Shown: positions 1 through 62,627 of the stretch, piece after piece
How the letters are laid out: each line of letters opens with the position of its first letter
Numbering within the stretch: the first letter of the stretch is position 1
Assembly (NCBI GenBank): GCA_961205875.1
Contig: OY540816.1
Span: 21,400,701-21,464,700 of the forward strand
Reading direction: 5' to 3'
DNA: 64,000 nucleotides
Source of the DNA: Sialis fuliginosa
Lineage: Eukaryota > Arthropoda > Insecta > Megaloptera > Sialidae
Translations under genes and position numbers: made by a program
Notes under the pieces: model-generated
What the model saw: only the letters and a program-made list of their open reading frames with translations
What the model was told of the DNA's origin: nothing
Database searches by the model: none

Positions 1-1117
1 AAGCTCAGATTAGTCTTAAAATGATTGTTCTACAGTCGAGTTGTACTTAGTAAAATTTTAAATTATTTTGATAGATCGATTAGGAGTTACAGCCTTTTAA
101 GTAAAAAAAAATAAAATAGTGGAAATAGTTAAACCTTAAACTCGAATTATTATTAGTGAATTTAATTAAACAATCCATCTATTTAAAAAGTTATATTGTG
201 TTTGAGAGGACAGAACTGACGGTGAAAAGGAGGAAGGGAAGGGGGTGCAACGTTGACGGCACTTGATGACATTTCCAGATAATGCGGTAACAAAAATTCT
301 ACACGCTAATATTTCATTTTGCTATAAAGGGAGACTCGAAATAATTTGTGACCGGTATGGTGACATATATACACACACACAAAAGTGGTGGGGGTGGGGG
401 GGTTAACTTAATAAACTGAATAATTAGTTGTGTTGTATTACAAATCGCCAGATCTTATCATAGGCGTTTTTTTAACGTCGTTTAACGAAATGGTATATTA
501 TAATTTGTAATTTTTTTGTGTGTGTTGGGAATATATATTTTTATGGTTTGTGTGCATTAAAATTAAAAGAAGAATTATTTCTTTTTTTGTTATATATGAA
601 ATTGTGCTGATAAAATAACTTAATAAATATAAGGGGAATTTTACATATTACCCTAGTTAAGAATTATTTATTTAATTTTTTTGTGGCGATATGAACCAAG
701 TGCTAAGATATTCAGAACTGGTAGATTTTAAATAAAAAGTTATGATTTATTTGCACGGTATTTAAAATTATTTCTTCAAGAAGCAGTGACGTAACCATGA
801 TTTTTTCCATGATGATTAAATGACTTATTTTGGTTTTCAGTTTAAAAAAAAATATGGTTTCGTTGTTTCAAAACTTTCAAATTAATTTATATGGATGTAT
901 ACTTTAGTTTGTAAAAGCCCTCTCCCCCACACTTTTTCAATTTTCAAAAATATTTTACATGGCCTCTTACTACTATCACCATTGCTGGATGGAAAGCCCC
1001 CCCCTGACTCCCCTCTTGGTTACACTTCTGGTCAGGAGCCAACATTTAAAATTTATTTTATATATTTTATAAACGAGAGATACAAAAATTAACGAACAAA
1101 CAAATCTAAAAAAATAT
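1..1117. other. AT-rich stretch, nothing recognised
   Basis: No gene or repeat relative was recognised here. It holds a short (AC)n run near 369-381 followed by G-rich sequence, and C-rich patches near 920 and 1000. The 65-residue frame at 895-1092 is low-complexity and not credible as a gene. Confidence 0.5.
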
Positions 1118-1430
1118 TTTCTTAAGGGGGCAGACCCAATTAGAATTTTGAAAAAATCATTTTTTTTTGCATTTTCTCAAAGTAGAATATTTCAAAAGTA
1201 TTCTCTGAAAATTTCAGACAAATGTCCTGTCCGTAGACGATTCAGTGTAAGTTCCAAAATAAATTTTTTATCTGCATGCAAATCGTACTCAAAACTTTAA
1301 ACGCGTTTTTCTCGAAACCATGTTTTCGAAGTCGGTGATCGCTGTAACTTGAGAACGGCTTTGCCGATCGGTTTGAAATTTTTCTCACTTATTCTATACA
1401 TAATTAGCCGATTGTCATCAAATTAAGCCG
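1118..1430 (+). repeat. Dispersed repeat L, copy 1
   Basis: Begins TTAAGGGGGCAGACCC and contains a 'CGTTTTTCTCGAAAC' block near 1302. A similar block with the same surrounding pattern (CTTTAAACGTG then TTTTTCTCGAAAC) recurs at about 23430-23470, so this is a dispersed family. The other copy ends ACTGCCTTAA, which could be the inverted partner of the TTAAGG start. That suggests a DNA-transposon terminus, but superfamily is not determined. Confidence 0.4.
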
Positions 1431-1569
1431 TTCTACAGTTAAGTGTCTATAGAGATTATGATTCAGTAATTGCAGTAGTAATCAAATATCAACAAATATT
1501 TCTAATTCAGTACATTTAATTAAACAAAAGTCCAACACTGGGGTATTATCCATGACTGGTGCCAGTACC
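1395..1569 (+). mobile_element. GGTACTGG-type MITE, right-end fragment
   Basis: Ends GACTGGTGCCAGTACC and is followed by TTA. The inner part (GCCGATTGTCATCAAAT, then AATCAAATATCAACAAATA) matches the right half of the copy at 29917-30410 and, inverted, the left part of 46785-47327. The left terminus is missing, so this is a truncated copy. The intact copy at 6440-6678 with TAA on both sides points to a PIF/Harbinger-like family. Confidence 0.65.
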
Positions 1570-1939
1570 TTATAAGCAAATTGATATTTGCTTACTGTCA
1601 TTGAAAATGAAATACAACCGTAGTGAATGAATTAAATTTTAAAATTAATTAAGATTCACAGAGTAACCAGTCAATAAAAGTGTAGCAAATATAGGTAAAG
1701 GCAATATATCAAACGTGGCCACCGTTCCCCGCGCGAACGGTTGATTTATAACCCCGCAGGGGGCGTGTTCTGTAACAGGTATCTGGTACACACACACGCA
1801 CGCACTCACGCACACGCCGGCGTGCTAAAAATAAAAGTAGCAATTAGCATAAAATAATTTTCAATACGCTATTAGTCGAGTTTTTGTAGGAGGAAAAAAG
1901 TTCTATTAGGTAAGGTTACCTTTCAACGAATTATAGGCA
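1570..1939. other. Unassigned stretch with GC-rich patch
   Basis: Holds a GC-rich patch at about 1715-1825 (CCCCGCGCGAACGG, then a CA/CACG microsatellite near 1790-1815), unusual against the AT-rich background. It could be a regulatory or exonic island, or a simple-sequence expansion; nothing decides between these. Confidence 0.3.
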
Positions 1940-2871
1940 CATGAGCGTTGTATTTGAAATTAGTAGGGGATACTTAAAAATTAAAAAACGTTTTATTTCG
2001 TACTGGAAATTTTTAGCAGCAATTTGGTAGAAAATAATATAGTTCATTGTATATTAAATCTATGCATTTTTATTTTATCTGTCCTTCGTCCTTTACAGTC
2101 AATGTAAAATGCATCGTAAACTAGAAACTTGAAATTTGTACTAAACATGTAAATGTACCCTCTAAATCTAGACAAAGATGTAAGGAGTGGGGGTTATAGA
2201 ACTAAAGCTAGTTTTTTTTATTCTATGGAATGTGGCATGTCAAAATGTATATTCAAATCTATCTTATTTTTTTCTTACTCAAAAATGGTAAAACATTATA
2301 CCAAGTTATGTGGGGAATCTTGTTAGAATTCGACCTAAAAATGGCACCTGCAAGAGGCTCTTAACAGTAACTACCCCCCTCCCCCCCATGAGCGTTGTAT
2401 TTGAAATTAGTAAGGGTTACTTAAAAAAAATTATTTCGTATTTGAATTTTTTAACAGCAATTTGGTAGAAAATAATATAGTTAATTGTATATTATCTATG
2501 CATTTTTATTTGATCTGTCTTTCGTCCTTTCCAGTCAATATAAAACACATCGTAAACTATATAAGCTAGAAACTTGAAATTTGTAGTAAACATGTAAAAA
2601 ATGTACCCTCTAAATCTAGACAAAGATGTAAAAATTTTGCAAAAAAAAAATCAGGGGAGTGGGGGTTATAGAACTAAAGCTAGTTTTTTTATACTGTGGT
2701 ATGTGGCATGTCAAAATGTATATTCAAATCTTTCTTATTTTTTCTTACTCAAAAATGGTAAAAACTTATACCAAGTTACATGGGGTGTCAAAATTTAGAT
2801 CTTTATTAGAATCTTGTTATAAATGGCACCTGTAAGAGGTTCTTAACAGTAATTACCCCCCACCCCCCCCG
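1940..2871 (+). repeat. Tandem duplication of dispersed repeat F
   Basis: Two direct copies: 1940-2386 and 2387-2871. Both start CATGAGCGTTGTATTTGAAA, carry a CTTTCGTCCTTT block, then TAGAAACTTGAAATTTGTA, then ACTCAAAAATGG, and end at a C-run (ACTACCCCCC or ATTACCCCCC). The second copy has small insertions, including TATATAAGC before TAGAAAC. Relatives of the same family lie at 41500-41970 and, with ends intact, at 62628-63354. The frame at 2601-2798 lies within this repeat and is not a gene. Confidence 0.75.
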
Positions 2872-3734
2872 TGAAACAGTATAGATTTTTTTTAAGAACC
2901 AACTTCAAGTCTTGTTCAATTTTACATTTTGTGACTTATGCAGACATAATACATTCTATGGAAATATAAGCTATATATGTTAAGTACAACCTTTCCAGAC
3001 GAGAGTCACTTACTGTAATATACCTACTGCATATACAAATACCTATTTAATTTCTCTCTTTTTACATTAACAAGGCACTGCACTGTTGTATGGTAGTTAC
3101 TGGTAAACAATTTGAACTTTTTAATGTTCTTTCAGACTTACTTTACATAAAGTTTCTCGAGTACGCTGCAGCTAGCGGGGTATTTGAGAGCAGCTAATGG
3201 GGGTGGGGTAGGGGGTGTGGGGTAAAAGGAAAGACGGTAGTTTGGTTGCATTAAGTTATTTTTAAATATACATTGTTATTTTTAAATTACAGTGTTTACA
3301 GCCAATGTTATGCGTGTAAAATATTAGTACAGTACATGATATTGGGAAATATATGGCTGTAATATTTTTTGGGGGGAAGTAAATCAAGGTCAGTTTTTGA
3401 CAGTCTATTAATTTTATCGGTTTGTGATCAAAATGGCTTTTTATGAAGACATATTTAATTTAAAAATGGGGTGTGTATTTTTATACAATGTACACGCGTT
3501 AGAAGTTATACTTCTTTCGCGTGGTTAAAAAACAACTAGGAAAAATTAACCTCAAATATTTTAAAACACTTTTTGAAATTTGATTACACGATTTTTAATT
3601 TAATTTATGTATTTTAAATATATTTGATGTATAGAATATTTCTTTCAAATATTTAAATAAAATTATGTTTCGGAAAAAACCATACCTATTTGAATCAAGA
3701 AAATATTTATTTCGCCATATTATGTTTTATGTGC
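2872..3734. other. AT-rich stretch, nothing recognised
   Basis: No coding or mobile signature was seen. A G-rich patch at about 3175-3235 (GGGGGTGGGGTAGGGGGTG) is the only compositional feature. Confidence 0.4.
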
Positions 3735-4140
3735 ATTGGCGTTGAATTTTTCTATATTTTAGCGAATTTTAATGTTTAAATACATGTGATTTAAAAGGAA
3801 AATTAGATGAAATATAATGAAAATGATTATTTTTTTGTAGAGTTTTGAAGTATTTTACATGTCATTATATAGATTTTGACACTCTGATTTCAAATTCGTC
3901 AACTAAAAACAATTCCGACCACGCATTCAAAATTTACAGCTATTTTTCTCCAAATTTTTGATAAAACTGAAACTTTGAGAGGCCATATATCGAGAACGGT
4001 TTGAGATACAGACCTGCGGTTTTAATATTTCAACTTTTCACATTATTTTCTATATAAAAACATTTTTGACGAAATCTAAAACTCAAAATTTTTTTGTCAA
4101 ATTTCATGCTTCAAATTTCAAAAAGATAAGACTATTTACT
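3735..4140 (+). repeat. Half copy of the foldback family
   Basis: Matches one arm of the foldback elements at 4962-5621, 11531-12266 and 54959-55704: TACATGTCATTATATAGA, then a CAATTCCGACCACGC block, then TATATCGAGAACGGTTTGAG and CAGACCTGCGG. The opposite arm is absent. The outer sequence (GCGAATTTTAATGTTTAAAT) is shared with the copy inside 48065-49099, so these two form a subfamily. Confidence 0.7.
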
Positions 4141-4935: not shown

Positions 4936-5660
4936 AGTTCAATTATAAAACTATAATACCTCTACTAAAAAAAATTTAGAATTGTTGATTTCGTTAAAAG
5001 TATGTTTATTTTATAGAAAATGACGTGAAAAGTTGTTTGTTTCAAACCGCAGGTCTGTATCTCAAACCGTTCTCGAGATATAGTCTCTCAAAGTTTTAGT
5101 TTTATCAAATTTTTGGAGAAAAAAGACCATAACTTTTGAACGCGTGGTCGGAATTGATTTTAGTTGACGGATTTGGAATCAGCGTGTCAAAATCTATATA
5201 ATGACATGTATAATACCTTAAAACTCGAGAAAAAAATTTTCGCGAGAAATCGAAAAAATTCAAAGGGGTATACCTTAAAAAAATGTCGATTTTTGACGAA
5301 AATTTTTTTGTCGGATTTTAAAGTATTATACATGTCAATATATAGATTTTGACACACTGATTTCAAATCCGTCAACTAAAATCAATTCCGACCACTCGTT
5401 CAAAAGTTATGGCCTTTTTTCTCCAAAAATTTGAAAAAACTAAAACTTTGAGAGGCTATATCTCGAGAACGGTTTGAGATACAGACCTGCGGTTTGAAAC
5501 AAACAACTTTTCACGTCATTTTCTATGCAATAAACATACTTTTAACGAAATCAAAAATTCAAAATTTTTTAGTGAAATTTCCTGCAATATATCGACTAAA
5601 ATACAAGAAAAAAAGACGTAGAATCATTTAGATTTGATTTCCACACATTAAGGAGTTATA
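4936..5660 (-). mobile_element. Foldback element, copy A
   Basis: A long inverted repeat of about 660 bp (core 4962-5621) centred near 5270. The left arm (ATCTCAAACCGTTCTCGAGA at 5058) is mirrored on the right (TCTCGAGAACGGTTTGAGAT near 5461). The right end reads ATACAAGAAAAAAAGACGTAG. The left end lacks the corresponding outer segment, but the flank AACTATAATACCTCTAC is the reverse complement of copy B's right flank, so copy A lies in the opposite orientation to B. Because the arms are complementary, near-identical 62-residue frames appear on both strands; these are symmetry by-products, not genes. Confidence 0.85.
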
Positions 5661-10241: not shown

Positions 10242-10906
10242 TAGCCCGATCATTTTAGATCAAATTTAGTCGAAACTTTTGACGCAGTTGTGTGTCCCCG
10301 GCGGAGTAGATGATGAAATCACATTATTGCCCATAAATTAATTACCGGAAGTGTCCGCCATCTTGGATTTTGTGTTTTTGTCAATTTGAATGCGTATTTT
10401 TCATTTCTCGATAAAAAAGTTAATAACAATTTTATAGAGAATTTAATTCTCTACAATCTTTATACAGTCAATATTGTTGAAAAAAAATTATTTATTGTTT
10501 GTACAAAAGCTGTTGGGAATTGAGTCCTCTACAACTTTACCATTTAAATATGCCACTTATTTTCAATAAAAATGGCATAAAATTTGAAAAAACTGCGGCA
10601 CTCTTCTAATTTTTAACACTTTTTGCTATTATTAGCAATAAATAATGTTTTTTCAACAATATTGACTGTATAAAGATTGTAGAGAATTAAATTTTCTATA
10701 AAATTGTTGTTAACCTTTTTATCGAGAAATGCAAAATACGCGTTCAAATTGACAAAAACACAAAATCCAAGATGGCGGACACTTCCGGTAATTAATTTAT
10801 GGGCAAGAATGTGATTTCATCATTAACTCCACCGGGGACACACAACTGCGTCAAAAGTTTCGACTAGGCAGTTTTTTTCGTGAAAAAATCTAAAATGATT
10901 GGGCTA
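10242..10906 (+). mobile_element. Foldback element, 661 bp, TA-flanked
   Basis: The element spans 10244-10904. Arms of about 260 bp (left 10244-10500, right about 10637-10904) are complementary: GCCCGATCATTTTAGAT starts the left arm and ATCTAAAATGATTGGGC ends the right arm, with TA on each outer side. A central unpaired segment of about 130 bp remains. Each arm carries ACCGGAAGTG (ETS/GABP-like) and CCGCCATCTTGG (YY1/Pho-like) in tandem. It is noncoding. The TA flanks fit a Tc1/mariner-type or similar integration, but no transposase is present, so the class is open. Confidence 0.85.
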
Positions 10907-11530
10907 TCTTAGGACAATACTGTAGTTGTTTTAATTTTGTCTCTTACATACAAAACCACAACATAAATTAAATCAAATGATCTCATGCAAAAGCTAACAA
11001 ATTATGGCACACAATCAACTATTTTCAATCAGAGTATGCTATGACTATAGCATCCATATACATTGTACACCAGCCGACTCGACGGTGGTTAAAGCCAAGA
11101 GTAACTTAACTGTGAAACTTAATTTAGATGTAATATAACTTTACACAAACCATGTTAATAAACGTTTGGTTAGTATGTGTCGCTTGAGGACGGAACTAGA
11201 AGAACTCTGTGCTACAATAAGATGTGTTTGCAGCATGCAGCTGTAATATTAATACGACAGGGATTTGGCTGTGTGGTCATCGGTAGAAAATGAATTTAAA
11301 TGTACTGTAGAGGTTTGGAATTAATTTCTCTGTGTTATTGTATGAAGGGGACATTACTCTAGTAACGTATATACTAGAGGTGTGACCGGAATTCACGTCT
11401 AACGTCACCACTATTGTATTTTAAATATAAATACATAGATTATTATCTTATATTAATATAACATTGCTTTAGTTCAAGCTTTTACTTTTTAAAATAATTT
11501 ATTATATATTTATATAGTAACTAAATGATT
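10907..11530. other. Mostly unassigned stretch
   Basis: No coding region or complete element. The end (AACTAAATGATT at 11520) is the left flank shared by copies A and B of the foldback family, so the larger host repeat of that foldback begins somewhere in this stretch. Confidence 0.4.
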
Positions 11531-12266
11531 CTACGTCTTATTTTCTTGTATTTTAGTCGATATTTGTATGACGAGTTGAAGGAAATTTTACTTAAAAAAT
11601 TCGAATTTTTGGTTTCGTTAAAAGTATGTTTATTGTATAGAAAATGACGTGAAAAGTTGTTTGTTTCAAACCGCAGGTCTGTATCTCAAACCGTTCTCGA
11701 GATATAGCCTCTCAAAGTTTTAGTTTTTTCAAATTTTTGGAGAAAAAAGGCCATAACTTTTGAACGCGTGGTCGGAATTGATTTTAGTTGACGGATTTGA
11801 AATCAGCGTGTCAGAATCTATATAATGACATGTATAATACTTTAAAATCCGACAAAAAAATTTTGGCCAAAAAGCGACATTTTTTTAAGGTATACCCCTT
11901 TGAATTTTTTCGATTTTTCGCGAAATTTTTTTTTTCGAGTTTTAAGGTATTATACATGTCATTATATAGATTTTGACACGCTGATTCCAAATCCGTCAAC
12001 TAAAATCAATTCCGACCACGCGTTCAAAAGTTATGGCCTTTTTTCTCCAAAAATTTGAAAAAACTAAAACTTTGAGAGACTATATCTCGAGAACGGTTTG
12101 AGATACAGACCTGCGGTTTGAAACAAACAACTTTTCACGTCATTTTCTATACAATAAACATACTTTTAACGAAATCAAAAATTCAAAACTTTTTAGTGAA
12201 ATTTCCTGCAGTGAACTTCAACTCGTCATACAAATATCGACTAAAATACAAGAAAAAAAGACGTAG
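11531..12266 (+). mobile_element. Foldback element, copy B (736 bp)
   Basis: The most complete copy of the foldback family. It starts CTACGTCTTATTTTCTTG and ends CAAGAAAAAAAGACGTAG. Both arms carry the ATCTCAAACCGTTCTCGAGA block and the GGCCATAACTTTTGAACGCG block; the centre is near 11898. Outer flanks (AAATGATT left, AGGTATTATAGTTTTATA right) match copy A inverted, so the foldback is the core of a longer dispersed unit. Mirrored 62-residue frames on both strands follow from the symmetry. No transposase is encoded. Confidence 0.88.
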
Positions 12267-12420
12267 AGGTATTATAGTTTTATAATTGAGCGTGTAAATT
12301 AATATTAAATACTATTTTTGAATTATTTATTAACTGAAAACACAGATTTGTATTAATTTACCCATAAAGTAAGGGAAGCACTGCTTCCCCTGCTTCCATG
12401 GACTCTTCGTCACTACTTAT
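12267..12420 (+). repeat. Outer flank of foldback unit, hAT-like end
   Basis: Contains GTGTAAATTAATATTAAATA, also right of copy C (55730), then TGCTTCCATGGACTCTTCGT ending near 12412. Read on the minus strand this is GACGAAGAGTCCATGGAAGC, nearly matching the sequence just left of copy C (GGCGAAGCGTCCATGGAAGC). It resembles a hAT terminus (TGGCGAAG form), so the foldback core may sit inside hAT-type ends. No target duplication was confirmed. Confidence 0.4.
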
Positions 12421-32305: not shown

Positions 32306-32321
32306 TGCAATTAAGGGTTAA
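32306..32321 (+). repeat. Inverted repeat bounding the array, left
   Basis: TGCAATTAAGGGTTAA is the exact reverse complement of TTAACCCTTAATTGCA at 36182-36197. The pair brackets the satellite array, with TTAA at both array-facing edges. Confidence 0.9.
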
Positions 32322-35300
32322 GAGCATCACGCACTTAAAGACCTTCGCGTGCTACTTCCCTTTTTAAAAACAAGTTAAAACTAAAAAAACAAATAAAAAC
32401 TCATACGCTAACAAAGAAGTAAATTGAATAGTTAATATCTCAGCTTGGCGCGATCGAAGAGACTCCAGTTTTTTTTTAAAATGTAGCTTACACTATTATC
32501 TTTAAGAGCATCACGCACTTTAAGACCTTCGCGTGCTCCTTCCCTTTTTTAAAACAAGTTAAAACTAAAAAAACAAATTAAAACTCATACGCTAACAAAG
32601 AAGTAAATTGAATAGTTAATATCTCAGCTTGGCGCGATCGAAGAGACTCCAGTTTTTTTTTAAAATGTAGCTTACACTATTATCTTTAAGAGCATCACGC
32701 ACTTAAAGACCTTCGCGTGCTCCTTCCCTTTTTAAAAACAAGTTAAAACTAAAAAAACAAATTAAAACTCATACGCTAACAAAGAAGTAAATTGAATAGT
32801 TAATATCTCAGCTTGGCGCGATCGAAGAGACTCCAGTTTTTTTTTTAAAATGTAGCTTACACTATTATCTTTAAGAGCATCACGCACTTAAAGACCTTCG
32901 CGTGCTCCTTCCCTTTTTAAAAACAAGTTAAAACTAAAAAAACAAATTAAAACTCTTACGCAAACAAAGAAGTAAATTGAATAGTTAATATCTCAGCTTG
33001 GCGCGATCGAAGAGACTCCAGTTTTTTTTAAAATGTAGCTTACACTATTATCTTTAAGAGCATCACGCACTTAAAGACCTTCGCGTGCTCCTTCCCTTTT
33101 TAAAAACAAGTTAAAACTAAAAAAACAAATTAAAACTCATACGCTAACAAAGAAGTAAATTGAATAGTTAATATCTCAGCTTGGCGCGATCGAAGAGACT
33201 CCAGTTTTTTTTTAAAATGTAGCTTACACTATTATCTTTAAGAGCATCACGCACTTAAAGACCTTCGCGTGCTCCTTCCCTTTTTAAAAACAAGTTAAAA
33301 CTAAAAAAACAAATTAAAACTCATACGCTAACAAAGAAGTAAATTGAATAGTTAATATCTCAGCTTGGCGCGATCGAAGAGACTCCAGTTTTTTTTTAAA
33401 ATGTAGCTTACACTATTATCTTTAAGAGCATCACGCACTTAAAGACTTTCGCGTGCTCCTTCCCTTTTTAAAAACAAGTTAAAACTAAAAAAACAAATTA
33501 AAACTCATACGCTAACAAAGAAGTAAATTGAATAGTTAATATCTCAGCTTGGCGCGATCGAAGAGACTCCAGTTTTTTTTTAAAATGTAGCTTACACTAT
33601 TATCTTTAAGAGCATCACGCACTTAAAGACCTTCGCGTGCTCCTTCCCTTTTTAAAAACAAGTTAAAACTAAAAAAACAAATTAAAACTCATACGCTAAC
33701 AAAGAAGTAAATTGAATAGTTAATATCTCAGCTTGGCGCGATCGAAGAGACTCCAGTTTTTTTTTAAAATGTAGCTTACACTATTATCTTTAAGAGCATC
33801 ACGCACTTAAAGACCTTCGCGTGCTCCTTCCCTTTTTAAAAACAAGTTAAAACTAAAAAAACAAATTAAAACTCATACGCTAACAAAGAAGTAAATTGAA
33901 TAGTTAATATCTCAGCTTGGCGCGATCGAAGAGACTCCAGTTTTTTTTTAAAATGTAGCTTACACTATTATCTTTAAGAGCATCACGCACTTTAAGACCT
34001 TCGCGTGCTCCTTCCCTTTTTTAAAACAAGTTAAAACTAAAAAAACAAATTAAAACTCATACGCTAACAAAGAAGTAAATTGAATAGTTAATATCTCAGC
34101 TTGGCGCGATCGAAGAGACTCCAGTTTTTTTTTAAAATGTAGCTTACACTATTATCTTTAAGAGCATCACGCACTTAAAGACCTTCGCGTGCTCCTTCCC
34201 TTTTTAAAAACAAGTTAAAACTAAAAAAACAAATTAAAACTCATACGCTAACAAAGAAGTAAATTGAATAGTTAATATCTCAGCTTGGCGCGATCGAAGA
34301 GACTCCAGTTTTTTTTTTAAAATGTAGCTTACACTATTATCTTTAAGAGCATCACGCACTTAAAGACCTTCGCGTGCTCCTTCCCTTTTTAAAAACAAGT
34401 TAAAACTAAAAAAACAAATTAAAACTCATACGCTAACAAAGAAGTAAATTGAATAGTTAATATCTCAGCTTGGCGCGATCGAAGAGACTCCAGTTTTTTT
34501 TAAAATGTAGCTTACACTATTATCTTTAAGAGCATCACGCACTTAAAGACCTTCGCGTGCTCCTTCCCTTTTTAAAAACAAGTTAAAACTAAAAAAACAA
34601 ATTAAAACTCATACGCTAACAAAGAAGTAAATTGAATAGTTAATATCTCAGCTTGGCGCGATCGAAGAGACTCCAGTTTTTTTTTAAAATGTAGCTTACA
34701 CTATTATCTTTAAGAGCATCACGCACTTAAAGACCTTCGCGTGCTCCTTCCCTTTTTAAAAACAAGTTAAAACTAAAAAAACAAATTAAAACTCATACGC
34801 TAACAAAGAAGTAAATTGAATAGTTAATATCTCAGCTTGGCGCGATCGAAGAGACTCCAGTTTTTTTTTAAAATGTAGCTTACACTATTATCTTTAAGAG
34901 CATCACGCACTTAAAGACCTTCGCGTGCTCCTTCCCTTTTTAAAAACAAGTTAAAACTAAAAAAACAAATTAAAACTCATACGCTAACAAAGAAGTAAAT
35001 TGAATAGTTAATATCTCAGCTTGGCGCGATCGAAGAGACTCCAGTTTTTTTTTAAAATGTAGCTTACACTATTATCTTTAAGAGCATCACGCACTTAAAG
35101 ACCTTCGCGTGCTCCTTCCCTTTTTAAAAACAAGTTAAAACTAAAAAAACAAATTAAAACTCATACGCTAACAAAGAAGTAAATTGAATAGTTAATATCT
35201 CAGCTTGGCGCGATCGAAGAGACTCCAGTTTTTTTTTAAAATGTAGCTTACACTATTATCTTTAAGAGCATCACGCACTTAAAGACCTTCGCGTGCTCCT

Positions 35301-36184
35301 TCCCTTTTTAAAAACAAGTTAAAACTAAAAAAACAAATTAAAACTCATACGCTAACAAAGAAGTAAATTGAATAGTTAATATCTCAGCTTGGCGCGATCG
35401 AAGAGACTCCAGTTTTTTTTTAAAATGTAGCTTACACTATTATCTTTAAGAGCATCACGCACTTTAAGACCTTCGCGTGCTCCTTCCCTTTTTTAAAACA
35501 AGTTAAAACTAAAAAAACAAATTAAAACTCATACGCTAACAAAGAAGTAAATTGAATAGTTAATATCTCAGCTTGGCGCGATCGAAGAGACTCCAGTTTT
35601 TTTTTAAAATGTAGCTGACACTATTATCTTTAAGAGCATCACGCACTTTAAGACCTTCGCGTGCTCCTTCCCTTTTTTAAAACAAGTTAAAACTAAAAAA
35701 ACAAATTAAAACTCATACGCTAACAAAGAAGTAAATTGAATAGTTAATATCTCAGCTTGGTGCGATCGAGGAGACTCCAGTTTTTTTTTTAAATGTAGCT
35801 TACACTATTATCTTTAAGAGCATCACGCACTTAAAGACCTTCGCGTGCTCCTTCCCTTTTTAAAAACAAGTTAAAACTAAAAAAACAAATTAAAACTCAT
35901 ACGCTAACAAAGAAGTAAATTGAATAGTTAATATCTCAACTTGGCGCGATCGAGGAGACTCCAGTTTTTTTTTTAAATGTAGCTTACACTATTATCTTTA
36001 AGAGCATCACGCACTTAAAGACCTTCGCGTGCTCCTTCCCTTTTTAAAAACAAGTTAAAACTAAAAAAACAAATTAAAACTCATACGCTAACAAAGAAGT
36101 AAATTGAATAGTTAATATCTCAACTTGGCGCGATCGAGGAGACTCCAGTTTTTTTTTTAAATGTAGCTTACACTATTATCTTTA
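32321..36184 (+). repeat. 184 bp satellite array, 21 copies
   Basis: Units begin AGAGCATCACGCACTTAAAG and contain TCGCGTGCTCCTTCCC, ATCTCAGCTTGGCGCGATCG, a T run and ATGTAGCTTACACTATTATC. Unit starts are 32321, 32505, 32689, 32874, 33057, 33241, 33425, 33609, 33793, 33977, 34161, 34346, 34529, 34713, 34897, 35081, 35265, 35449, 35633, 35817 and 36001. Most are 184 bp; lengths of 185 (10 T) and 183 (8 T) recur eight units apart. Inner units are nearly identical. Edge units 1 and 19-21 differ most (GCTACTTCCC in unit 1; GAGGAGACTCC in 19-21). Each unit holds a small stem, GAGCA...CGC against GCG...TGCTC. No frame is conserved as coding. Confidence 0.97.
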
Positions 36185-36197
36185 ACCCTTAATTGCA
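36182..36197 (-). repeat. Inverted repeat bounding the array, right
   Basis: TTAACCCTTAATTGCA, exact inverse of 32306-32321. The TTAA-CCC form recalls piggyBac termini, but here the two copies face away from the array, so the array is not itself a piggyBac element. Confidence 0.9.
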
Positions 36198-50759: not shown

Positions 50760-51365
50760 ATGAATATTAGATTTCTGTTATCCTAATGCCAAGAATACAA
50801 TACACATTTTTAGCTTATATAGTTACATCATTTTAAATAAAAACACAAATATACGTCTATTTCATTCTATACCAAGTTTAACATATTTAAATACTAAAAT
50901 TCGGAATATCAAATATTTATTACATTAATTTTCGTTAAAATACCTAAAAATATTTAAATAAACTGCAAATTTCCTTACTTCTAGTCATCCGATTTGGCTG
51001 AGTTCTAATGAGGTTCTATTCTGCAAATAGATGAAGCGAATTCAAAAGGTTTAATGTTAATTTATGCAGTTAGTTACCGTGGTGTAAAAATTGGTCTAAA
51101 ACGACAAATTGAACTTTGTTTATATTTTTATGACAGAAAATTAAAACCTATCGATATTAAATTAAGTGAATATGGAGACTGTTATGTTCTCATTTAGAAA
51201 ATGTAAACATGCAAGGGGGTTACTGAAGAAATTTAATATATAATGCTCATTTTATCATACGAAAAAATTAATGGGACGAGAGTAATACCACACTGCAAAG
51301 CATGCTTTGGGTGTGTTAATATTGTAACAATCAAATGGGAGGAGCCTACTAAGTTTGTGATAAGC
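50760..51365 (+). repeat. Dispersed repeat I, copy 2
   Basis: Matches 18540-18880 inverted (see TTAACATATTTAAATACTAA near 50878 and GGAGGAGCCTACTAAGTTTG near 51339); boundaries approximate. Just beyond, GCGATGGATATAAGAAAGTG near 51403 resembles the end of repeat P. Confidence 0.5.
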
Positions 51366-51494
51366 GAAATTGAATGAAAACTGGTCGACCACTTCTGCAT
51401 GCGATGGATATAAGAAAGTGAAAATTACTATATAGTAGAACATACAATGATTTATCAAATACAAATCCCCTAACCATAAAAATTGTAAGAGTTT

Positions 51495-51539
51495 AGACTT
51501 ACACGTGTTTCAATAGCAATGCTATCATCATCAGTGTCT
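51495..51539 (-). ncRNA. Hammerhead ribozyme-like motif, minus strand
   Basis: Mirror image of the plus-strand motif. On the minus strand the core CTGATGA is at 51528-51534, GAAA at 51508-51511, stem II GATAGC/GCTATT between them, and the predicted cleavage site follows the base at 51500. Stem I uses AGACA (51535-51539) against AGTCT (51495-51499): the innermost pair is A-A, so stem I is weaker than in the plus-strand version. Confidence 0.6.
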
Positions 51540-51542
51540 TTA

Positions 51543-51587
51543 AGACTCTGATGATGATAGCATTGCTATTGAAACACGTGTAAGTCT
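51543..51587 (+). ncRNA. Hammerhead ribozyme-like motif, plus strand
   Basis: All conserved parts are present in order: stem I 5' strand AGACT (51543-51547); core CTGATGA (51548-51554); stem II GATAGC and GCTATT with loop ATT (within 51555-51570); core GAAA (51571-51574); a very short stem III, ACACGTGT (51574-51581); UA with predicted self-cleavage after A51582; stem I 3' strand AGTCT (51583-51587). Hammerheads with a tiny, self-complementary stem III are known from Penelope-like retroelements and retrozymes, where they may act as dimers. No reverse transcriptase or GIY-YIG domain is visible nearby. In a transcript covering the whole palindrome the long hairpin would compete with ribozyme folding. 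Confidence 0.78.
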
Positions 51588-51630
51588 AAACTCTTACAAT
51601 TTTTATGGTTAGGGGATTTGTATTTGATAA

Positions 51631-52098
51631 GTCATAACCATAGTTTTTGTCTGTTGTTTGTTATATATATACAATGATTCCCATATATACATATACTTAC
51701 CACTCTGCCAGATTCCGTAGGATAACCCAATCTCACTGGAACGAAACTCCGGGCGTTAAAAATGTCATAGAGAACTTGACGCACGTTCCCCCCCCCCCCC
51801 CTTCACTTGTACTTGCTCCATTGAATCTACTCTCTCATTCCGAACGTTTTAGATAAAGCATTCTTTGGCTTCCTGTTCTTCGTGCGAACTTCACATGTGG
51901 TACGGGGTTTAGACGTTTATTGTATACATATTATTACATGTATGGTATTTACTTATACATATATTGTGTGCACTTTTGGTAATTTGTTTTTGAATGGATT
52001 ATGTATAAGATGGTATTGATTTTAAAGCTATAGTAGTTTGAGAAAGAGACGCATTATTGCTTTTTGGCCATACCGAAGATACGAGAAGCGTTGTGATC
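51631..52098. other. Unassigned stretch with C run, then repeat G
   Basis: A C run lies at 51789-51801. CATACCGAAGATACGAGAAG near 52070 starts a fragment of repeat G that is interrupted by the hAT MITE following. Confidence 0.4.
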
Positions 52099-54914: not shown

Positions 54915-55760
54915 TTGTACATCGGTGGCGAAGCGTCCATGGAAGCAGGGGAAACAGTCTACGTCTTATTTTCTTGTTTTTTAGTCGATATTTGTATGAC
55001 GAGTTGAAGTTAACTGCAGGAAATTTCACTAAAAAATTTAGAATTTTTGATTTCGTTAAAAGTATGTTTATTGTGTAGAAAATGACGTGAAAAGTTGTTT
55101 GTTTCAAACCGCAGGTCTGTATCTCAAACCGTTCTCGAGATATAGCCTCTCAAAGTTTTAGTTTTTTAAAATTTTTGGAGAAAAAAGACCATAACTTTTG
55201 AACGCGTGGTCGGAATTGATTTTAGTTGACGGATTTGAAATCAGCGTGTCAAAATCTATATAATGACATGTATAATACCTTAAAATTCGAGAAAAATTTT
55301 TTCGCGAAATATCGAAAAAATTCAAAGGGGTATACCTTAAAAAAATGTTGATTTTTGACCAAAATTTTTTTGTCGGATTTTAAAGTATTATACATGTCAT
55401 TATATAGATTTTGACACGCTGATTTCAAATCCGTCAACTAAAATCAATTCCGACCACGCGTTTAAAAGTTATGGCCTTTATTCTCCAAAAATTTGAAAAA
55501 ACTAAAACTTTGAGAGGCTATATCTCGAGAACGGTTTGAGATACAGACCTGCGGTTTGAAACAAACAACTTTTCACGTCATTTTCTATACAATAAACATA
55601 TTTTTAACGTAATCAAAAATTCTAAATTTTTTAGTGAAATTTCCTGCAGTGAACTTCAACTCGTCATACAAATATCGACTAAAAAACAAGAAAAAAAGAC
55701 GTAGAGGTATTATAGTTTTATAGTTCAGCGTGTAAATTAATATTAAATACTATTTTTGAT
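54915..55760 (+). mobile_element. Foldback element, copy C (core 54959-55704)
   Basis: The core starts CTACGTCTTATTTTCTTG and ends CAAGAAAAAAAGACGTAG like copy B, with all inner blocks preserved in both arms (746 bp). The right flank (AGGTATTATAGTTTTATAGT) is the same as in copy B; the left flank is GCGAAGCGTCCATGGAAGCA instead of copy B's AAATGATT. Copies B and C therefore share one side only, which suggests the foldback core and its carrier can be separated. The 62-residue minus frame is the usual symmetry product. Confidence 0.88.
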
Positions 55761-56533: not shown

Positions 56534-56569
56534 CCTAACCTAACCTAACCTAACCTAACCTAACCTAAC
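56534..56569. repeat. Interstitial telomere-type repeat (CCTAA)7
   Basis: Seven consecutive CCTAA units, the complement of the insect telomere repeat TTAGG. Its position between ordinary dispersed repeats shows that it is interstitial, not a chromosome end. Shorter runs are at 14510-14520, 37715-37727 and 40127-40139. Confidence 0.9.
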
Positions 56570-62141: not shown

Positions 62142-62627
62142 TGATCCCACGGCTTGCGAAATTATGAAATTTCGGAAGAATACGCCGAAGTTACATCCAA
62201 GTGAATTTGCATAAAACAATAAAGTCCGACTGAATGGCGAATCAGTAATTGTTAAGAAGTCCTTTATACTCTATGTATTTTATTTCTAAATGTATTTTTA
62301 ATGATGAATTATTGTACTTTAAATACTTTCTCCCTCTGTTTCGTAAGTTTTCATCAGAAAAGTATCTAGAATTGTTCGTGTATATAAACAAATGTTGTTA
62401 TGTTATCCTTACAGTAATAATTATTTTTAAGGAGGCGCCGAACCGGGCTTGGGCTGAATACTGAATATTCGGCCCAAGGATTAAACTCCTTGTGTTATTT
62501 TTAAATTTAATATTTTTTGATTAGTTGAGTTGGTGTCTTATGAAAATAAATTAAATTAAATTGAAATATAATGGGTTATGTCAAATTATTGAAATTTTTA
62601 TTGTTTCTGATTTTAAAGCTCGAGTTT
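62142..62627. other. Unassigned stretch with a small hairpin
   Basis: TTGGGCTGAATACTG and AATATTCGGCCCAA (62449-62478) form a near-palindrome enclosed by AAGGAG (62431) and CTCCTT (62486). Its role is unknown. The 71-residue frame at 62249-62464 is not recognised. Confidence 0.4.

Follow-up and report, generated by a model that had tools for sequence, protein, structure and literature searches.

A short Penelope-like insertion of two head-to-head pseudo-LTRs with predicted hammerhead motifs on both strands in Sialis fuliginosa

The window, which refers here to the whole stretch of 64,000 nucleotides analyzed from the genome of the insect Sialis fuliginosa, contains a 216-bp insertion derived from a Penelope-like element (PLE) at 51453-51668, in which two pseudo-LTRs (pLTRs) stand head to head and a 34-nt tail is present on one side only. 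The features recognized at this locus are listed below, with bit scores obtained with a covariance model (R1) that is described later.

51442..51452, no strand: target-site duplication, left copy (ATACAATGATT), an 11-bp exact direct repeat flanking the element
51453..51540, minus strand: tailless pLTR arm in inverted (head-to-head) orientation, with 98% complementarity to the right arm; the arm recurs in other genomic copies
51495..51539, minus strand: mirror-image hammerhead motif, 14.1 bits with R1, with an A.A closing pair in stem I
51533..51541, plus strand: arm join, AGTGTCTTT, native upstream sequence of the direct pLTR according to PLE locus L191
51542..51630, plus strand: direct pLTR of the PLE (monomer 1-89), 100% identical to the pLTR of PLE loci L191 and L192
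51543..51587, plus strand: minimal hammerhead motif, found by a relaxed descriptor (one extra nucleotide), 15.6 bits with R1, covarying with a sister family
51631..51664, plus strand: 34-nt PLE tail, followed by ATAT up to 51668; it lies directly 5' of AAGC-ATG of the PLE ORF in L191 (ORF start seen in L179 and L191)
51669..51679, no strand: target-site duplication, right copy (ATACAATGATT), an 11-bp exact direct repeat flanking the element

The two arms form a palindrome (51447-51540 and 51542-51635) whose 94-nt halves are 98% complementary and are separated by a single base in the centre. L191, a tandem PLE locus of the host genome, matches the window from 51533 to 51665 at 100%, which identifies the join AGTGTCTTT as sequence native to the direct arm, and the inverted arm's own sequence probably ends at about 51532-51534. 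This origin of AGTGTCTTT accounts for both the arm mismatch at the centre and the A.A pair of the minus-strand motif, whose stem I 5' strand probably derives from the upstream sequence of the other arm. In an alignment of the window with seven further copies, all share a common left end (TATCAAATAC), and the right arm always leads into the 34-nt tail ending in GTTTGTTAT and then into target sequence; three of these seven copies were inserted in the opposite orientation.

On the plus strand, the motif consists of stem I AGACT (51543-51547), CTGATGA (51548-51554), stem II (51556-51561 with 51565-51570), GAA (51571-51573), the palindromic stem III ACACGTGT (51574-51581), A17 (51582), and the closing strand of stem I, AGTCT (51583-51587), with the predicted cut at 51582/51583. 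The type I hammerhead core (CUGANGA / GAA, with A15.1-U16.1 and H17) is present, but A9 and stem II are separated by one extra nucleotide, the U at 51555, and the first pair of stem II is G.U. The sequence-only reading of this DNA had placed the hammerhead elements at the same coordinates and had overlooked the extra U, the G.U pair and the A.A pair closing stem I on the minus strand. The stem III that it described as palindromic, ACACGTGT, is unable to form a 4-bp hairpin and, alone, gives only 2 bp with a 4-nt loop. The plus and minus motifs should not be counted as independent because both lie in one palindrome.

Due to the extra nucleotide after A9, a strict descriptor found nothing in the window; it also gave 0 hits in the 32 loci scanned (L191-L222). 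A relaxed descriptor allowing one extra nucleotide detected the plus-strand motif as the only match in the window, and the same descriptor matched in 1 of 60 Markov sequences (64 kb, with the make-up of the window). The pattern CTGATGA-N4..30-GAAAC occurs three times in the window compared with 0.13 expected, and the resemblance of the motif to a hammerhead exceeds chance. The third occurrence (62338-62357, minus strand) is unrelated to the arms and apparently fortuitous.

The parent element was sought in the host genome (392 Mb in 20 contigs), which contains 352 copies of the exact 40-nt motif and none of the reversed control pattern. With the palindrome as query there were 1160 candidates, the 40 scored of which yielded 84 matches, while the right arm with its flank (127 nt) gave 1243 candidates, the 40 scored being full-length or nearly so with 99-100% identity. 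In several genomic loci, coding sequence was found upstream of the same right arm. In L191, a 783-aa ORF occurs in tandem with the same pLTR and matches the RVT_1 family (E 2.5e-13). PLEs encode a telomerase-like reverse transcriptase (RT) in a single ORF, and the L191 ORF beside the pLTR, with an RT assigned by this family match, agrees with the single-ORF arrangement. The ORF also has a GIY-YIG match (E 0.0021, 18.7 bits, below the Pfam cut-off of 22.6), and both IRYVDDIF and GIYKI..YIGQS are legible in it; a PDB sequence search with this ORF returned no match. L191 is organized as two tandem units, one of them 5'-cut, and an inverted stretch that ends in an inverted pLTR. Tandem units and inverted pLTRs (L191 and 51 palindromic copies), a tail on one end (34 nt, within the 30-40 nt typical of PLEs), and short target-site duplications (11 bp in the window) all correspond to published PLE anatomy (PMC3846280, PMC11167929), and by most of the sequence features compared the insertion is that of a PLE. 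Zigzag copies, in which several plus and minus pLTR pieces alternate, were observed at L163, L168 and L150.

A sister PLE family, known from eight loci with 47-60% protein identity (~54% for L199, a full-length copy), carries a hammerhead 52 nt behind the ORF in L199; the window-family hammerhead in L191 is located ~115 nt behind the upstream ORF. The sister motif (633 exact occurrences in the host genome, reversed control 0) has the same core, the same ACACGTGT and also one extra nucleotide after A9, while its stems I and II differ in sequence and yet pair. Covariation was counted over five rows, i.e., three of the eight sister loci and the two window arms, four of the rows being distinct; this alignment replaced one of seven rows with L223 and L224, whose cores had been misplaced by MAFFT. 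Pairing was observed in 94.2% of cells, with six pairs changed on both sides, and fell to 22.9-42.0% when the partners were slid by 1-3 columns. In shuffles of the 3' letters, none of 500 trials reached the observed pairing, doubly changed cells or covariation score, but 101 of them reached the count of pairs changed on both sides and 369 the number of pair types. Compensatory changes thus exist in stems I and II, in the form of a single contrast between two families. Since the two stems covary between these families, the hammerhead is regarded as real on the evidence of covariation, one contrast that would be hard to explain without a structure. The minimal type I hammerhead of Penelope kind proposed from the sequence alone has therefore gained both a PLE in the host genome and stems that covary between two PLE families.

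Two more distant PLEs, L224 and L223, possess a CTGAAGA-T-..GAAACGTC motif with a short stem I and were left out of the count. In L224 (31% identity), the start ATG of the ORF (943-3867, minus strand) begins at A9 of the CTGAAGA..GAAACGTC motif, and its stop TGA falls within the core of the following motif copy; an ORF start inside a hammerhead resembles that of Poseidon of Anolis. L223 has the CTGAAGA..GAAACGTC motif twice, and its longest ATG-started ORF begins elsewhere.

The covariance-model hit above threshold that had been envisaged for the motif was not obtained from Rfam, which reported no hammerhead for the window at gathering, nor, at E<=10, for 51200-51900, for a single arm alone or for five PLE loci. 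The library also proved insensitive on phage loci: at gathering, a hammerhead was reported in none of the 14 descriptor-positive loci among 20, and the sole one (L062) belonged to the other six. Because nothing was reported in those 14 loci, the silence of Rfam is weak evidence. A scan of IMG/VR with a simple type I pattern yielded at least 120 viral stretches (L001-L120), 79 of which hold a full hammerhead descriptor match somewhere in the stretch, not always at the searched pattern; an exact-sequence scan of viral contigs gave no match. The model R1 was constructed from 44 phage hammerheads and, as the phage search pattern demanded G10.1 and C11.1, it favours canonical hammerheads. It recovered 9 of 9 held-out phage loci at 22.1-62 bits, some of which resemble its training loci, and a second hit at 15.0 bits in L108 is probably due to chance. 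The window arms scored 15.6 (plus) and 14.1 (minus) bits, and the sister PLE family 15.8-16.6 bits. With default filters, a larger R1 search listed only the minus-strand motif of the two window arms (14.1 bits, E 0.19), and the plus-strand motif was likewise unlisted in L191. Judged by R1 scores only, the motif of the window would be inconspicuous.

Folding was examined by prediction. For a single window arm, the hammerhead fold is predicted at -5.6 kcal/mol against -8.2 kcal/mol for the best fold, and for a single sister motif at -7.4 against -11.2 kcal/mol. When two copies of the window motif are folded together, the predicted minimum-energy structure is precisely a double hammerhead whose stem III has 8 bp; in the sister self-dimer, stems I-III form as well, and each core gains two additional predicted pairs. 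The energies of these self-dimers are unexceptional (25 and 73 of 300 shuffles were as low). Stem III is self-complementary in both PLE families. Small PLE hammerhead variants reportedly cleave as dimers (work attributed to Lunse et al. 2017 and to Cervera & de la Pena 2014). The nucleotide after A9 resembles the extra core nucleotide of a viroid hammerhead. In PMC7761336 hammerheads are noted in PLE pLTRs, and dimeric action of PLE hammerheads is reported there and in PMC6466107. The extra nucleotide after A9 and the self-complementary stem III would fit such dimeric hammerheads. With the small PLE variants the window family shares the minimal type I form and a tiny stem III, whose self-complementarity fits dimeric action (PMC6466107, PMC3088659); its own sequence differs.

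A different situation is predicted for the palindromic copy. Read-through RNA is predicted to form one long hairpin of -152.2 kcal/mol, in which the pairing probability of stem II is 0, whereas in RNA starting at the palindrome centre stem II is kept at a probability of 0.84-0.98, a value that concerns stem II alone and not stems I and III. Given this predicted hairpin, the earlier suggestion of an active ribozyme from transcripts of both directions appears unlikely. The hammerhead in the palindromic copy of the window is probably a passenger, since read-through RNA would be expected to fold arm to arm.

To understand how the palindrome formed, 51 palindromic copies were compared, 40 of which had been selected for similarity to the entire palindrome and 11 for similarity to the complete direct arm with tail. 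The direct-arm search covered 30 loci, 18 of which had an inverted arm; seven duplicates were dropped, and the 12 others were without an inverted arm within 60 nt. The direct arm was required to reach monomer 121 and no locus failed; arm ends were taken from BLAST alignments, and junctions were considered distinct when the spacer or either arm start differed. Duplications of at least 10 bp were detected in 43 of the 51 copies (1 of 300 in swapped-flank controls), 12 bp being the commonest measured length, which may include a few element-end bases, and no duplication of 10 bp or more was found in the remaining 8 of 51. The palindrome query included no more than 12 nt of the tail; among the 40 copies found with it, one arm nevertheless extended to monomer 122-123 in all 40, and the other stopped at 84-97 in 39; L146 carries a tail on both arms. 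Over the whole set, the inverted arm stopped at monomer 84-97 in 48 of 51 copies. With one arm tailed and the other stopping at 84-97, the starts of the two arms are ~34 nt apart.

The 51 copies contain 43 distinct junctions, so most palindromes arose at insertion and do not descend from a parent that was already palindromic. Upstream PLE sequence absent from the direct arm is present in the inverted arm of L186 and L166; a simple snap-back of one cDNA would be insufficient here unless bases were lost later, while two cDNAs on two templates would suffice. None of the 102 arm ends in the 51 copies falls at monomer 40-44, around the predicted cut site, a count weakened by the fact that the sample favours complete arms. 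For the 11 inverted arms not chosen for completeness, the inner ends are at monomer 1 in eight cases and otherwise at 47, 51 and 55, with none at 40-44. Head-to-head arrangement also prevails among adjacent pairs less than 300 bp apart, which comprise 14 head-to-head, 2 direct and 0 tail-to-tail pairs in the first 100 of the 352 motif places listed, and 8, 3 and 0, respectively, in 98 of the 633 places of the sister motif (contig 1). A single-copy palindrome generated by a replication template switch, as outlined in PMC8794818, was also considered and was ruled out by the dispersed family in the genome.

We therefore favour, with a probability of roughly 90%, the reading that the window locus is a short PLE insertion made of two head-to-head pLTRs with a 34-nt tail and an 11-bp duplication, whose hammerhead was inherited from the parent element. 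The high copy number of the family, its RT-encoding relative, the tail, the duplications, the distinct junctions and the covarying stems can all be read from the sequences themselves. As to the mechanism, we infer two-sided priming. The PLE protein would nick the two target strands at positions roughly 10-15 bp from each other, and reverse transcription would begin at two nearby internal positions of the RNA, only one of which would yield the tail. On either side of the break a copy would then be extended as far as the RNA 5' end near GTGTCTTT, where the two copies would be joined head to head. In tandem PLE RNA, two copies might pair through ACACGUGU into a double hammerhead that could cut after UA. 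Although the pair itself is a by-product of an element of known kind, the many recent insertions of this family provide a natural record of where reverse transcription starts (two sites 34 nt apart), where it stops, and how two copies are joined, a record that bears on PLE insertion and on the formation of inverted repeats, both of which are poorly understood.

Several of these properties have counterparts in other PLEs. The Pen families of Adineta vaga (PMC3846280) have head-to-head inverted pLTRs with a 31-bp tail on one of them, duplications of 8-10 bp, palindromes at the pLTR 5' end, and solo pLTRs, all of which resemble the window family. Unlike Pen, the insertion of the window family is the pLTR pair alone, with the internal ORF absent and in many copies, and its measured duplications are slightly longer (12 bp commonest). 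The authors of PMC3846280 favour self-priming on an antisense template. A second counterpart is Poseidon of Anolis carolinensis (PAc), for which PMC11167929 describes a hammerhead located at the pLTR. Its RT has two nearby internal start sites on the RNA, which account for the tail, and its protein both cleaves and extends the two target strands where the target is AT-rich. The window family likewise has a pLTR hammerhead, and the two RT start sites of PAc would explain its tail. The two differ in that the start codon of PAc lies inside the hammerhead while the ORF of the window family starts after the tail, and in that RNA cleavage was measured for PAc, where it was seen only with protein added, whereas the hammerhead of the window family is predicted from sequence. 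According to the same study, the PAc hammerhead is dispensable for insertion in vitro and uncut RNA is the main substrate; the absence of arm ends at the predicted cut site agrees with this without proving it. The inverted arrangement, which the sequence-only reading had regarded as unusual and did not know to be described, turns out to be ordinary PLE anatomy (PMC3846280), and hammerheads in PLE pLTRs are known as well (PMC7761336, PMC11167929). Both ingredients have thus already been described, and among the literature matches listed no paper is devoted to a head-to-head hammerhead pair.

Four other explanations were weighed, two of which keep the PLE. The hammerhead resemblance could be a chance match inside a PLE pLTR, so that the element stands and there is no ribozyme, which might be argued from the silence of Rfam, the extra core nucleotide and G.U pair, the low R1 scores, the single arm not predicted to fold as a hammerhead, and the two covariation measures that are not above shuffles. 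We consider this improbable in view of the sister family, in which stems I and II show compensatory changes and the pLTR lies behind the ORF, of the chance rate of the relaxed descriptor (about 1 in 60 windows), and of published reports of hammerheads in the pLTRs of PLEs. Conversely, the inverted pair might be a functional two-way ribozyme device that was selected as such. The exact core-to-stem-III motif does occur on both strands in 24 of the 51 palindromic copies, and stem II would be kept in RNA starting at the centre; however, the copies examined were the most alike and nearly identical, so that their sameness is no sign of selection, the 43 distinct junctions speak against a conserved two-way design, stem I of the minus motif in the window is closed by A.A, and read-through RNA is predicted to collapse into the single hairpin with no stem II. 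A selected device is accordingly very improbable, even less likely than a chance resemblance.

The other two explanations replace the PLE altogether and seem the most far-fetched. A foldback or MITE-type DNA transposon with long inverted ends would be palindromic, numerous and flanked by duplications, and other large palindromic repeats are present in the window, but matching inverted termini and a duplication of fixed length, as expected of such elements, are not what was found: the tail is on one end only in 39 of 40 copies, the measured duplication length varies, an RT ORF is found in tandem with the same pLTR, and solo pLTR copies with duplications were recognized by eye (L172, L173 and L189). 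It is equally hard to believe in a microRNA or hairpin-siRNA gene, for which the near-perfect long hairpin and weak Rfam miRNA matches could be cited, as every one of these matches is below its gathering score (the best, MIR4374, reaches 69.9 bits where 105 are needed) and the family has hundreds of dispersed copies with many distinct junctions. The PLE insertion with an inherited hammerhead thus remains the preferred reading.

The relation of this PLE family to retrozymes deserves separate consideration. Metazoan non-LTR retrozymes (PMC7229834) carry a type I hammerhead and consist of direct tandem repeats, whereas in the window copy the two units are inverted and each strand has its own hammerhead; direct tandem hammerhead monomers of about 150-450 bp are absent from it, and direct tandems were found at L225 and L226. 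One of the hammerheads in that source, HHR_Amex2, is similar to the window motif in having a 2-bp stem III with a tetraloop and a weak stem II base. Hammerheads on both polarities are documented for viroids and viroid-like RNAs in PMC9608096, and the window copy resembles them in having one hammerhead per polarity, the two facing each other in a rod; viroid-like RNAs are replicating circular RNAs, whereas the window copy is a DNA insertion formed by reverse transcription.

L226 (host genome C3:32444600-32445200) is a single PLE insertion with duplication ACAGTGTTCG, an inverted arm and a tail, in which three direct hammerhead units are found at 183, 255 and 327 (72-nt spacing). Both joins between the units are identical (monomer 1-68 + CTTA), and the units could have arisen from a 72-nt circular template or by later tandem expansion. 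L225 (host genome C1:39236000-39237150) contains three 176-bp direct units between an inverted and a fuller pLTR and is retrozyme-like. Each unit consists of 82 bp of sister-family pLTR with the hammerhead and ~94 bp of another dispersed repeat; the non-pLTR part alone matches many places, while the whole unit was matched only in its own array (40 scored of 1462 candidates). The 72-nt and 176-bp direct hammerhead units in PLE ends offer a starting point for studying the connection that has been proposed between PLEs and retrozymes. Perhaps the PLE hammerhead cuts out small RNAs that are circularised and become templates around which the PLE RT runs, head-to-head pairs arising if each target strand is primed on an RNA of its own. 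We put this forward tentatively and consider it rather unlikely as a whole; if true, PLEs would both generate and mobilise retrozymes.

Besides the insertion, the window contains other repeats. Large palindromic repeats at 4969-5570, 11530-12267 and 54958-55705 belong to one family, and a palindromic repeat at 10267-10866 is unmatched to those three among the self-comparison matches listed. At 32318-36185, a 184-bp unit is repeated 21 times in a satellite-like array, its copies being 99% alike. Seven CCTAA units are present at 56534-56569, inside the contig, and presumably represent a telomere repeat of the arthropod type.
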